Below, one piece after another: positions 39,001 through 42,759 of a stretch of DNA of 61,320 nucleotides. The notes beneath the pieces were generated by a model. The model saw nothing but the letters and a program-made list of their open reading frames with translations. It made no database searches and was not told the DNA's origin. Location of the stretch: contig JAJRQC010000155.1 of assembly GCA_024280455.1 (NCBI GenBank), positions 1 through 61,320 of the forward strand, in the 5' to 3' direction. Position 1 is the stretch's first letter. Every line of letters starts with the position of its first letter. This DNA comes from Deltaproteobacteria bacterium. Lineage in GTDB: Bacteria; Desulfobacterota; Desulfobulbia; Desulfobulbales; Desulfobulbaceae. A program made the position numbers and the translations under genes.

Positions 39001-39612
39001 TCAGGACTCATCTTCATCCATCCGCTTGAGTCCCTCCATTAAAATCATCATGAAGTCACCAATTTCCCGTGACTTCACCATGGATTCGGGCAGGCCGGGT
39101 AAAAAACGGAAATAGCCGTTTCGCTGGGCGAGCATGGCATAAATGGCCTCCAGATTGTCCAATTCCTCATATCGGGCGGCAATCACCGCCCCCTCGCGAA
39201 ACGTCACTCGAGCGGTTCCGCCTTCCATATCGAGCAGCAACCTGCCGGTTTTCTGGTGCATATGAAAAACCTGCAGTAATTCAGCCGGCAGGAGAGCATC
39301 TATACGACCACTTATGACCGGGTCGCCCTCGTCTTCCCCCAACCCCTGCGGCAATTCCCCAAGCTGTAATTTAATCAGTCCGGTACACCCCCCGCAGGTA
39401 AAAACGGTCTCACGGTATTCAGAAAAATCGGTGGCTACAGCGGGGATAAGCTGAAACAGCAATTCGGTGATGGCTCGAACCAGAATCAGACAGGACGGAC
39501 GTCCAACCGGCAAGACAACGGCTTTGTCGGTTAACAACATGCGGTCGTCATGACTGTAAAAAGGACAGCCGCACTCATCAATAATATCAAAAGCTGCAGA
39601 AAAATTTGCCAT
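39001..39612 (-). CDS. DUF4388-like protein with cysteine clusters
   Basis: A 203-residue protein. The central and C-terminal part (LLPAELLQVFHMHQKTGRLLLDMEGGTARVTFREGAVIAARYEEL) matches the DUF4388/PATAN type, often seen in signalling and gliding-motility proteins. The N-terminal half has CGCPFYSHDDRMLLTDK and FTCGGCTGLIKL, two cysteine sets that could hold a metal. The start at 39612 (MANFS) is preferred; an upstream extension to 39723 is rich in Cys and Pro and unlikely. It is divergent from the E2-like gene, with a 357-bp gap between them. Confidence 0.75.
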   Translation of the reverse strand: MANFSAAFDIIDECGCPFYSHDDRMLLTDKAVVLPVGRPSCLILVRAITELLFQLIPAVATDFSEYRETVFTCGGCTGLIKLQLGELPQGLGEDEGDPVISGRIDALLPAELLQVFHMHQKTGRLLLDMEGGTARVTFREGAVIAARYEELDNLEAIYAMLAQRNGYFRFLPGLPESMVKSREIGDFMMILMEGLKRMDEDES

Positions 39613-39969
39613 GTAAACACAATATACTGTTAGGGGCACACAACAAAGAGGATAAAGACATGCGCAGGAAGGAGCCCTCTGATTATTCCTTTCTACTGTA
39701 CACGGGAACGAATCCATACTCAATTGGATTTTTGCCTATGTGTTTACAGGCAGATGCCGTATTTCCTCGCTCCCCGCAACAAAATTGACGGATAAGCTGA
39801 ATTATCTATTCTTTGATGAGAAATCGACTTGTATTCCACCATGAGATTATTATAGAATAACAAATATGCAGAATGGGCAGTACCTATGGAATTCTCATAA
39901 CATTCCCAATAATGATTCGCCGATCTGCGGTTTGCTCACCATCTGATCTCATCATTACAGGTTCACAAT
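39613..39969. other. Intergenic region between divergent genes (357 bp)
   Basis: No convincing gene; one short frame (39661-39788) has no support. An inverted repeat TGTAAACACA (39612-39621) / TGTGTTTACA (39739-39748) brackets 117 bp next to the start of the DUF4388-like gene. The right half is AT-rich and should contain the promoter of the E2-like gene, though no consensus was clear. Confidence 0.5.
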
Positions 39970-42354
39970 ATGGCCACAGCTTCCGACCAGCACAACAACG
40001 ATTACGAGCAACTGAAAACAACTCTTGAACTCTATCCAAGTATTCAGATTTCTCAAGTTGAAGGCCAGCCTCCCGACAACTATGAAATAGAATATCACCT
40101 CAAGGGATATGTTCGTAATCCCGACGGCAGTATTGCAACCGCAGAACTCCATAGAATACGAATCAGCCTCCCCTTCGGTTATCCTCATTTTGCTCCCACC
40201 GTCAAACCGCTCACCCATATATTTCATCCGGATATCGACCCGGCAGCCATCCGTATCGCCGATCAATGGCAGGAAAAACCGAATCTCTCGGATCTGGTTC
40301 TCACCATAGGAGAAATGATCTGCGGAAATATCTACAGCATCGAAGACCCGTTTAATCAGGAAGCTGCCGACTGGTATGAACAGCATCGCGACACCCTGCC
40401 GCTGGATGTCCTGCAGATAGCCGACATTGATGATTCCGATGATGACCGATTCGACACCCTGGACGAAGATACATTTTCCTCCCTTGGCCTTGACGATGAC
40501 GACATTTTCGGGACCGAAACAGAGATGGATGAAAGCCGGATTGATATGCTTCGTCTGCAGATTGAACAAAAAAATATCTTCGCCGCCAGCAAAACCATGT
40601 CGGAGATTCCAAAATCGGTGAACATCCCTGACCGTGACCAACTTGAACAGACAATTGCCACCGCCCTTAAAGAGAGTGATAAATTATATAAAAAGGCGGA
40701 ACAGCATGAAGACCATGGCCGGCTCGATGAGGCAGCCCATGTTTTAGAGGAAATTGAAGCCATTGCTGCCGACACCCCCGGTCTGGACAGCTTGCGCAAC
40801 CGGGTGCTGCAATCCCAATCTCTGGCCGACAACTTCTCTCTTGAACAGGAGGAGAAGCCCTCGGAAGAAACAATTGCGCAGGCCACATCCGATGCTCCGC
40901 CGCCAAAACAAAAAATAAAAAAAACAGGTATTGCCAAGAAGTCATCCTTCCCGCTCAAATTCGTCCTGGTGATCGGTGTCATTGGCGCAGTCCTCACTGC
41001 CGCCGGCTTGCTCTATCTACAGGATAAGAAGGTGCTCAATCAATGCCTGGCCGAGTGGCAGAAGGTGCAGTCATTGACCACCAACAACCAGTTTGACGAT
41101 GCACAGGCGGAAGCTGAGGCAATTCTCAGAAACATACCCAATCTCAAACTGCTTACATCTTCCGGCAACGCCTTAGCCTCACAGGTAACGGCCTTGCTCA
41201 ATTCCGATGACTTTCAGCAGGGACTTCTGGGGAACACCTTGTACGATGGCGTTTATATCTCTTTTGCCAAGAAACAGAAGATCGACAAGTTAAAGCCACT
41301 GACGGAATCCGCTGAAGCGCTGGTGAAACAGGGAAAAATCAGAAAATCCCTGGCAGCCTACCAGGAGGCAATTCGCTTTGCCCGCAAACATGAACTGATT
41401 GAGCAGGCCCGGGAACTGACCGAGACCATGAACAACCTGCGCTTTGAAGAGGCTCTGGCCTCAGCCAAAAAAGCCGAGGATGAAAAAGAATGGGAAAATG
41501 CCGCCGATACCTACCGCCGCGCGCTCGAAATTTCCCGCACGCTCTCCGACCCTGAAGAGGCCAAAGAGATAACAAAACGACTGACGGTCGCCACCTTCCG
41601 GCACGAACTCGACCAGTCCAGACAGGCATTTACCGGAGCACAGTGGCAGGAGACCATCACCATGCTCGAACATGCCCAGCATCTTATTGATGCCAACCCG
41701 GCGGCGGTGTCGGCCGAGGAACGAGCGGAGCTGAACCGGCTGCTGCTCAACTCACGTCTCTATCAAATACTGACCCTTGCCCGGGAAGCATACGAACGCC
41801 GTGACTGGGCTGCCAGCATCAAGCAGTACCAGAAGGCTCTTCATCTCCTGAAAACGGAAAAAGAAGGATTTGGCCCCGGAACGGAGGAATCGTACACCAA
41901 GATAGAAAAGACCTTGCTCATGATGCAGATAGCGCAGGAACAAAGCTATGCTATACGGGCAAAAAAGGAAGACGATCTGGAGAGAATCCTTCAGCATTAC
42001 AACAAAATTCTTGAGCTGGTCCAGACAAGTAAATTTCGTTCAGATACAAACCTGCGCAAACTCACACTGAACTCAAGGGAACAGATTGCCGAAACCCGAA
42101 CCCTGCTCGATATACAGGACAGGATCAACTACCTGAAAGCAAACTACCAGCAGATCTTTACAAAGAATTACCCGTCCTTTGCCGGATCAAAGCTTGAGCC
42201 CCCCAAGGTACATTTCAATAAAAGAATAGGGCGCAAGATGCTCTTTACCATGACCTGCATTGAACGAAGCCAGGGCAGCCCGTCACGCCTGGAACTCAGG
42301 TATATCTATGATCCAGACACAAAGCGCTGGTCTTTATTTACCGGCCAGGGATAA
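39970..42354 (+). CDS. E2-like (ubiquitin-conjugating fold) - TM - TPR-like membrane protein
   Basis: A 794-residue protein. Residues ~10-140 resemble an E2/UBC fold: KGYVRNPDG, HRIRISLPFGYPHFAPTVKPL, IFHPDIDPAAIRIADQW and LSDLVLTIGEMICGNIY follow the order of the E2 strand-Pro-rich loop-HPN-active-site-helix layout. HPN is HPD (86-88) and the position of the catalytic cysteine is Ile96 or a neighbour, so it looks non-catalytic (UEV-like). An acidic linker (150-180), a helical part, a Lys-rich stretch and one membrane helix (about 329-350) come next. The remaining ~440 residues are TPR-like helices (GKIRKSLAAYQEAIRFARKH, WAASIKQYQKALHLLK). The positive-inside rule puts the E2 part in the cytoplasm. 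Identification of the E2 fold is from motif order only. Confidence 0.85.
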   Translation: MATASDQHNNDYEQLKTTLELYPSIQISQVEGQPPDNYEIEYHLKGYVRNPDGSIATAELHRIRISLPFGYPHFAPTVKPLTHIFHPDIDPAAIRIADQWQEKPNLSDLVLTIGEMICGNIYSIEDPFNQEAADWYEQHRDTLPLDVLQIADIDDSDDDRFDTLDEDTFSSLGLDDDDIFGTETEMDESRIDMLRLQIEQKNIFAASKTMSEIPKSVNIPDRDQLEQTIATALKESDKLYKKAEQHEDHGRLDEAAHVLEEIEAIAADTPGLDSLRNRVLQSQSLADNFSLEQEEKPSEETIAQATSDAPPPKQKIKKTGIAKKSSFPLKFVLVIGVIGAVLTAAGLLYLQDKKVLNQCLAEWQKVQSLTTNNQFDDAQAEAEAILRNIPNLKLLTSSGNALASQVTALLNSDDFQQGLLGNTLYDGVYISFAKKQKIDKLKPLTESAEALVKQGKIRKSLAAYQEAIRFARKHELIEQARELTETMNNLRFEEALASAKKAEDEKEWENAADTYRRALEISRTLSDPEEAKEITKRLTVATFRHELDQSRQAFTGAQWQETITMLEHAQHLIDANPAAVSAEERAELNRLLLNSRLYQILTLAREAYERRDWAASIKQYQKALHLLKTEKEGFGPGTEESYTKIEKTLLMMQIAQEQSYAIRAKKEDDLERILQHYNKILELVQTSKFRSDTNLRKLTLNSREQIAETRTLLDIQDRINYLKANYQQIFTKNYPSFAGSKLEPPKVHFNKRIGRKMLFTMTCIERSQGSPSRLELRYIYDPDTKRWSLFTGQG

Positions 42355-42498: not shown

Positions 42499-42759
42499 TT
42501 AATGGTGGTGATGATGGCCGTGACCGTGCTCATGTGCGTGCCCAGCCTCTTCCGCAAGTGGACCGCCAGTCATCTCCAGAGCTTTCTCCAGCGCCTGTCG
42601 GGCATCCTCCAGGGCATGGACAGCGCTGTTCAATTGCCCGGCAAGCTCAGCATTTGCCTGGGTAAGCTGCTCCGCCCAGCCCGCAAATTCTTCGCCGTGA
42701 CTCCGGTTATGCTCAATCCAGTGCGGCAACATAACCCGTAATTTCTCGATAACATCCAT
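42499..42759 (-). CDS. Small His-rich-tailed protein next to cooT
   Basis: An 86-residue protein with a helical body (VMLPHWIEHNRSHGEEFAGWAEQ, then a coiled-coil-like ANAELAGQLNSAVHALEDAR) and a C-terminal metal-binding tail HAHEHGHGHHHHH. It follows cooT by 5 bp on the same strand, so the two are probably co-translated. A role in nickel or zinc handling is inferred from the tail and the neighbour; I know no named function for it. Confidence 0.8.
   Translation of the reverse strand: MDVIEKLRVMLPHWIEHNRSHGEEFAGWAEQLTQANAELAGQLNSAVHALEDARQALEKALEMTGGPLAEEAGHAHEHGHGHHHHH

Follow-up and report, generated by a model that had tools for sequence, protein, structure and literature searches.

What does a ubiquitin-conjugating (E2) fold do in a bacterial protein that lacks the catalytic cysteine and runs on into a membrane helix? 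The question is raised by a gene in a 61,320-nucleotide stretch of DNA (hereafter the window), which is positions 1 to 61,320 of contig JAJRQC010000155.1 in the GenBank assembly GCA_024280455.1 of a Deltaproteobacteria bacterium (class Desulfobulbia, family Desulfobulbaceae). An original prediction, made by reading the window alone, described the product of this gene as a UEV-like, non-catalytic E2 domain anchored in the inner membrane with a periplasmic tetratricopeptide repeat (TPR) region, and suggested that a neighboring divergent DUF4388-like gene may belong with it. To our knowledge, non-catalytic E2 domains have hardly been studied outside eukaryotes. We found an E2 fold, loss of the cysteine in this lineage, one transmembrane helix, TPR-type helices, conservation across much of the class, and divergent linkage to the DUF4388 gene. 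On these grounds we tentatively favor, with slightly less than even confidence, that the gene encodes an adaptor that crosses the inner membrane once and works with the DUF4388 protein, and that its cytoplasmic head, used for binding, is UEV-like and non-catalytic, having descended from a bacterial E2 of the ubiquitin type. The topology, partners, ligand, and signal in this proposal we infer. Overall, the original prediction was broadly supported. The gene and its parts are as follows:

39970..42354 (+), coding sequence of the membrane-anchored pseudo-E2/TPR protein, 794 aa
39970..40404 (+), predicted cytoplasmic E2 (UBC) domain, residues 1-145, from profile, models, and alignments
40252-40254 (+), Arg95 codon, at the catalytic Cys position in alignments
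40405..40530 (+), acidic linker, residues 146-187, with low model confidence over 153-183
40531..40836 (+), helical (TPR-like) domain, residues 188-289, N-terminal of the transmembrane helix, from the model and a weak TPR_14 match at 240-270
40837..40962 (+), lysine-rich linker, residues 290-331, with low model confidence
40963..41019 (+), transmembrane helix, residues 332-350, from hydropathy, and N-in from charge bias
41020..42174 (+), predicted periplasmic TPR-like helical hairpins, residues 351-735, from the model and TPR profiles
42187..42351 (+), C-terminal beta domain, residues 740-794, from the model, with L742, P745, C763, E765, and W787 each at 90% or more

The 794-aa open reading frame (ORF) was confirmed at 39970-42354 on the forward strand. 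Its product aligned over the whole length with 19 relatives at 24-44% identity and had one match within its own genome. Residues 40-141 matched the Pfam family UQ_con (E-value 6.8e-10, 39.1 bits against a cut-off of 27), which places the protein in the UBC/E2 superfamily, and no second UQ_con match occurred across the source genome. Among 59 aligned members of the family, 56 matched UQ_con at E ≤ 1e-3, the window protein included. Searching the sequences of the PDB with residues 1-157 (phmmer) returned solved E2s, led by UBE2C at 4.4e-7, and a family profile of 27 rows again found the UBE2C family (1.2e-7). A structure model of the E2 domain built with 59 sequences had a predicted local distance difference test score (pLDDT) of 91.8 and a predicted template modeling score (pTM) of 0.87. 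With this model, Foldseek retrieved 332 PDB chains at E ≤ 1e-3, and the 50 matches listed all came from entries of E2s or E2 complexes. The best structural match by VIA-align was UBE2S (7ahf; Z 13.4, root-mean-square deviation 2.8, 128 residues aligned), meaning that the domain has E2 topology. RWD families were absent from the Pfam matches up to E 1 for the window protein, and the UQ_con match together with the HP motif would favor UBC over RWD. Chance occurrence of the E2 motif order is ruled out by the profile, the fold, and the match of nearly all members to UQ_con. The N-terminus is a genuine UBC/E2 domain, and the fold first read from the order of its motifs was borne out by profile search, sequence search, structure prediction, and fold comparison alike.

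Profile alignments place the canonical I-C-L opposite A-I-R-I of the window protein, and therefore Arg95 occupies the catalytic Cys position. An HPD motif (86-88) also stands where canonical E2s have HPN, so that both the catalytic Cys and the Asn expected of an active E2 are replaced. An E2 fold without the catalytic Cys is a trait that the window protein shares with UEVs. For a broader view of this site, 153 matches in fetched loci were reduced to 113 distinct E2 stretches (an E 1e-20 limit dropped none). The catalytic column held R in 64 of these, C in 37, K in six, P in two, A in two, H in one, and D in one. The residue after HP was D in 107, E in two, A in two, and N in two, with both N rows outside the class. 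Desulforhopalus sp. IMCC35007 (L127) is one of the relatives with Cys. Hence, the non-cysteine position that had been predicted stands for the window protein but not as a trait of the whole family, and this mixed column implies that the family comprises potentially catalytic as well as clearly non-catalytic members.

We placed these residues on a tree built without the catalytic column, whose support was moderate (44 of 110 inner branches were open). Named rows were assigned to f6, f13, and f15 by tree position, f1 being the window's own family. Arginine fills the column in 60 of the 62 rows of the f1 branch (A in the other two). The f6 branch counts 30 rows, of which 29 have cysteine and one has H. 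Branches holding f13 and f15 genomes are mixed, with C, K, and R, and one f13 branch has Cys in six of eight rows. At least four changes between Cys and non-Cys are required on the tree. A basic residue appears in separate branches: f1 and a pair within f13 have R, and an f13 clade has K. The E2 part is most conserved at HPD (0.42 bits of mean entropy over residues 85-90) and in the loop-4 region (0.55 bits over 68-77) and least in helix 1 (2.27 bits) and strands 1 and 3, compared with 1.67 bits over the whole E2 part, all with related rows unweighted. In canonical E2s, loop 4 faces the E3 and helix 1 faces the E1. Such a pattern, with HPD and loop 4 conserved and helix 1 variable, would be expected if the domain served for binding and had become independent of an E1.

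The full-length model (pLDDT 87.2, pTM 0.49) consists, beyond the E2 part, of a long helix starting at the transmembrane segment, hairpins to about residue 735, and a beta domain to 794. TPR superhelices (LGN and designed TPRs) led the Foldseek list of this model, in which BamD and E2s were also present. The window protein scored below the TPR gathering threshold (best TPR_11, 23 bits versus 26.8), and TPR_2 matched at E ≤ 1e-3 in 33 of the 59 members. Both the single membrane helix and the repeat helices after it were thus recovered, the former by hydropathy and the latter by these weak matches together with the model. Across 59 proteins, the hydropathy scan gave one transmembrane segment in 54 and two in five. 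The flank on the N-terminal side of the segment was more positive in 54 of the 59, and the E2 head should therefore be cytoplasmic and the TPR part periplasmic, as judged from charge bias. The helical domain ahead of the membrane helix (188-289) and the small beta domain at about 740-794 go beyond the original prediction. In some f6 genera there is a second copy, shorter at about 530 aa, as in genome G129, where it accompanies the long copy. Four relatives of about this length (L033, L035, L112, and L117) carry P or R in the catalytic column and lack a DUF4388 neighbor, and in L033 and L035 the membrane helix comes almost directly after the E2 domain.

The E2-TPR protein is a conserved family rather than a one-off. 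Its E2 part was matched in 170 of 257 genomes of the class. In samples of the phylum, the family profile matched 13 of 395 genomes, ten of them within the class, and UQ_con matched 12 of 390, seven above the cut-off. A species-level genome scan gave 156 relatives, and many of the best 80 were titled Desulfobulbaceae, Desulfobulbus, or Desulfocapsaceae; these 80 also include the cable bacteria Electrothrix and Electronema as well as Desulfobulbus elongatus and Desulfogranum mediterraneum, and others bear general titles such as Deltaproteobacteria. No relative was found among 19 pattern matches in a scan of viral contigs, the collections of plasmid and phage records not being searched. A recent phage-borne oddity is ruled out by this result and by the breadth of matches in the class.

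The E2-TPR gene faces a divergent gene whose product carries a DUF4388 domain, which we take to be the same as PATAN, behind an N-terminal domain with four invariant cysteines (Cys4):

39001..39612 (-), coding sequence of the divergent partner, a Cys4-DUF4388 (PATAN) protein, 203 aa from Met at 39612
39358..39612 (-), N-terminal domain of the partner, with C16, C41, C73, and C76 invariant in 17 aligned rows
39010..39312 (-), DUF4388 (PATAN) domain of the partner (7.1e-18, 65.2 bits, cut-off 25)
39613..39969 (no strand), shared divergent intergenic region, with sigma-70-like matches on the forward strand at 39785-39812 and 39824-39853

The start at Met 39612 was chosen by comparison with relatives, the listed ORF beginning at an upstream TTG. 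With 65.2 bits to PF14332, the partner belongs to the PATAN/DUF4388 regulators. No Pfam match above cut-off was obtained for its N-terminal domain of about 85 residues. The promoter scan of the intergenic region was near chance, with two sigma-70-like matches versus 1.1 expected (standard deviation 1.0). Partners begin with the Cys4 domain and end with DUF4388, and 26 of 79, scored with a scripted motif, have a cyclic nucleotide-binding (cNMP) domain in between. Pfam found the cNMP domain in five of six partners, the sixth having DUF4388 alone. A cNMP-bearing partner accompanied 24 of 29 Cys-bearing E2 rows with a partner versus 2 of 50 others, although a rule pairing the two features is not supported because it rests on one supported independent pair. 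In cyanobacteria, the DUF4388/PATAN regulator PixE is a binding target of the photoreceptor PixD and is itself believed to bind the pilus motor PilB1, according to the accessible text of PMC7690835; that of PMC7380572 calls the function of the PATAN domain undetermined.

The linkage of the two genes is widespread. A partner gene lay divergently within 1.5 kb of the E2 gene in 79 of 102 distinct rows; the 11 rows left out of the 113 lacked a counted locus with 1.5 kb upstream, and the window's own row is one of them, as loci L001-L032 were excluded from this count. The N-terminal matches of the two genes were a median of 264 bp apart (87 of 111 loci, duplicates included). When neighbor families were clustered from 99 sources, duplicates again included, the divergent DUF4388 gene was the most frequent with 68, the next having 57. 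In the f13 and f15 branches, the partner was kept in 15 of 15 rows, and the export, HAD, and SIS-CBS families were not among the up to six ORFs per side (14 of the 15 rows listed). This persistence of linkage where the usual other neighbors are gone supports the suggestion that the DUF4388 gene belongs with the E2 gene.

Where might such a protein have come from? Three profile matches fell outside the class: L133 (genome G585), L134 (G281), and L135 (G331). L133 is the closest relative seen there (E-value 2.1e-38). It has an N-terminal E2 with HPN and Cys, then a Zn-ribbon-like stretch (below cut-off), and its cluster (G585:C35:56000-70000) encodes a subtilase, an AAA ATPase, DnaJ, the E2, Prok-RING_1, FHA, JAB, and ThiF. 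By its gene content, this is a bacterial ubiquitin-type cascade set minus a recognized ubiquitin-like gene. L134 has an E2 without Cys and, by eye, a transmembrane segment and TPR-like parts, and sits beside a TPR protein. L135 is outside the 113 rows because its E2 frame was missed in ORF picking. At its locus (G331:C211:91000-105000), genes for ThiF (E1), a JAB-like protein (below cut-off), an AAA ATPase of proteasomal type, and a member of the Pup ligase family stand side by side; between them are an E2-profile match and a short ORF that by eye resembles a ubiquitin-like gene, so that ubiquitin-type and Pup-type components share a single cluster. The family profile scores L133 at 132 bits, far above the best PDB E2 (34.7 bits), and the window family therefore most likely descends from bacterial cascade E2s, having left the cascade. 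This descent agrees with the accessible text of two reports, one of bacterial E2s and inactive RWD-like E2s (PMC1779556) and the other of archaeal and sporadic bacterial ubiquitin-type cascades (PMC5654768).

Compared with the UBC/E2 superfamily (PF00179; UBE2S, UBE2C), the window protein shares the fold over residues 1-145, the GYP...P loop, the HP motif, a W, and the C-terminal helices, and differs in having Arg for Cys, Asp for the Asn of HPN, and fused transmembrane and TPR-like parts. It resembles the eukaryotic E2 variants without a catalytic Cys (the UEVs Mms2/UBE2V and Tsg101, and FTS/AKTIP), which are soluble and use the E2 fold for binding. Chain D of 8qat, which we take to be FTS/AKTIP, aligned with Z 12.0 by VIA-align. 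We know of no such variant in which a membrane helix leads into TPRs outside the cytoplasm. A one-helix membrane tie is shared with UBE2J/Ubc6, although these E2s are catalytic and tail-anchored, with nothing sizeable beyond the membrane. The original prediction had called the whole arrangement unfamiliar, and we likewise found no description of a membrane-anchored pseudo-E2/TPR protein in the literature covered, which left out most subscription journals, nor do we know of one. Neither DUF4388 nor 'ubiquitin-conjugating' was counted in the 15 cable-bacteria papers listed. In the E1-E2-RING-JAB clusters with Prok-RING_1 (L133), the E2 domain is N-terminal as in the window protein, but it has HPN and Cys, the Zn-ribbon-like stretch replaces the transmembrane and TPR parts, and cascade genes are adjacent. 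The inactive RWD-like E2 domains of bacterial polyUbl operons (group 6e), thought to bind ubiquitin-like proteins, are also bacterial E2 folds without Cys; they differ in sitting within Ubl/E1/JAB operons, and the accessible text of PMC1779556 mentions no transmembrane and TPR part.

The genes around the pair in the window encode SecD/SecF-type export, CxxCxxCC, HD, HAD, and SIS-CBS sugar isomerase proteins, as well as a dehydrogenase, a biotin/lipoate ligase, and sulfite-reductase-type proteins. Among 17 neighboring ORFs scanned with Pfam there was no match to ubiquitin-like, E1, or JAB families, in agreement with the earlier remark that no ubiquitin-like, E1, or deubiquitinase gene is adjacent. 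Just 3' of the E2-TPR gene lies an 86-aa ORF with a His-rich C-terminus (42499-42759, reverse strand), for which Pfam and NCBIfam gave no match above cut-off. In the cable-bacteria clade (L095, L097, L098, L111, and others), the E2-TPR gene is kept, but in most of the loci the upstream place is taken by another gene, which by eye resembles Sua5/YrdC (cluster 26). Prok-JAB scored above cut-off in one of seven genomes having the protein, namely the window's own, at a place unlinked to the locus. There (L162, G000:C128), a JAB and a ThiF gene are neighbors and are accompanied by a sulfhydrylase-like gene and a short ORF resembling TusA, the last two named by eye; this group on contig 128 looks like sulfur-carrier chemistry, not an E2 cascade. 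Of eight ThiF-family proteins from three genomes (G117, G126, and G129), one exceeded the cut-off for the ThiS adenylyltransferase ThiF and one that for a MoeB. The remaining six stayed below cut-off, with TcdA as the best match in three and MoeB/ThiF-like matches in the other three.

How would the adaptor work? In the mechanism that we propose, the E2 head would no longer carry a thioester; its conserved loop-4/HPD face would serve to bind a protein or peptide. A cytoplasmic state may be sensed by the divergent partner (metal or redox by way of Cys4 and, in partners with the cNMP domain, a cyclic nucleotide), which may act on the same complex as the E2 head. On the other side of the membrane, the TPR part with its beta cap would hold envelope proteins. 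The outcome would be assembly or signaling coupled between the two sides of the membrane.

Several observations weigh against a non-catalytic adaptor paired with the DUF4388 protein. Cysteine occupies the catalytic column in about a third of relatives (37/113), and 'non-catalytic' is therefore inapplicable to the family as a whole. Genes of the ThiF family were present in all seven genomes examined, so an unlinked E1 is possible and could in principle load a Cys-bearing member. Loop 7 (98-106), the second E3-facing loop of canonical E2s, is unconserved at 1.8 bits, W100 excepted. In 23 of the 102 distinct rows, the E2 gene has no adjoining partner (nine of the cable-bacteria clade, four short paralogues, six of f6, two A rows, and two outside the class). 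The partner adjoined the E2 gene in none of the nine rows of the cable-bacteria clade and is therefore not obligatory there. Co-occurrence in genomes of the class speaks for the pairing: the Cys4 domain was found in 172 of 249 genomes, 160 having both families and 12 having Cys4 only. Ten had E2 only or were outside the Cys4 search, which covered 249 class genomes versus 257 for E2; two of these (G036 and G071) are listed as Cys4 negatives, and the other eight (G037, G087, G091, G106, G157, G160, G172, and G223) are most likely the ones outside it. However, a matching genome has one to seven Cys4 matches, meaning the co-occurrence may not concern the linked gene, and it tracks the species tree and is therefore not independent evidence. 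Finally, the Cys state of the E2 and the presence of the cNMP domain in the partner were not seen to follow each other on the tree.

These points bear on three other explanations. Members with Cys, which make up the f6 branch, f15, and part of f13, might still conjugate a ubiquitin-like protein, received from an unlinked MoeB/ThiF-type E1, onto membrane-near substrates, leaving Arg/Lys members such as the window's as regulators or degenerate copies. The near-uniform Cys of the f6 branch and its majority in one f13 branch, the several changes of state on the tree, the HPN and Cys of L133 within its ThiF-E2-RING-JAB cluster, and MoeB/ThiF-like proteins in both genomes of Cys-bearing members examined (G117 and G129) argue for it. 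We nevertheless consider it rather unlikely, given that Asp replaces the Asn of HPN in the 36 Cys-bearing rows besides L133, that Prok-JAB gave no match in three genomes with such members (G117, G129, and G240), and that no recurrent cascade-forming neighbor was seen among the neighbors clustered, some of them scanned. We think it quite improbable that the protein is a receptor for a ubiquitin-like protein, free or attached, whose C-terminal carboxylate would be bound by Arg95 or Lys95 instead of forming a thioester. Such a receptor would account for the basic residue in separate branches and for the finding that an adjoining partner is lacking in all six distinct rows whose residue is P, A, H, or D, compared with 17 of 96 rows with R, C, or K (Fisher 7.5e-5). 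These active-site hints are weak; the association comes down to three supported independent pairs, which is too few (sign test p 0.25). Moreover, no ubiquitin-like gene was linked among the ORFs scanned, and the order in which Cys came first depends on the single relative L133.

The gaps in linkage, in the cable-bacteria clade and in other branches, would fit an envelope scaffold in which the E2-fold head serves for dimerization or anchoring alone and the DUF4388 gene is linked merely via a shared promoter region. So would the TPR region C-terminal of the membrane helix, which is the largest part of the protein. Yet the strong conservation of loop 4 and HPD exceeds the needs of a dimerization tag, and linkage persists throughout the f13 and f15 rows despite loss of the other usual neighbors; we consider a scaffold of this kind unlikely. 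The binding head of an adaptor with a DUF4388 partner remains the reading that we tentatively favor.

A bolder extension of the adaptor reading, which we also consider unlikely, is that the E2 fold has been reused in trans-envelope signaling. Having left the E1-E2-RING cascade, it would have turned from a transferase (Cys) into a reader (Arg/Lys) more than once, and the Cys4-(cNMP)-PATAN sensor would relay the metal, redox, or cyclic-nucleotide state to periplasmic complexes bound by the TPR part, in a large share of the class. The adaptor reading itself provides a first functional idea for a conserved gene pair, E2-TPR and Cys4-DUF4388. With Cys, Arg, and Lys at one site, this widespread bacterial family offers natural orthologues for studying the change from a conjugating enzyme to a binding module. 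If the adaptor reading is true, E2 folds would gain a role in coupling the cytoplasm and the envelope in sulfate reducers and cable bacteria.

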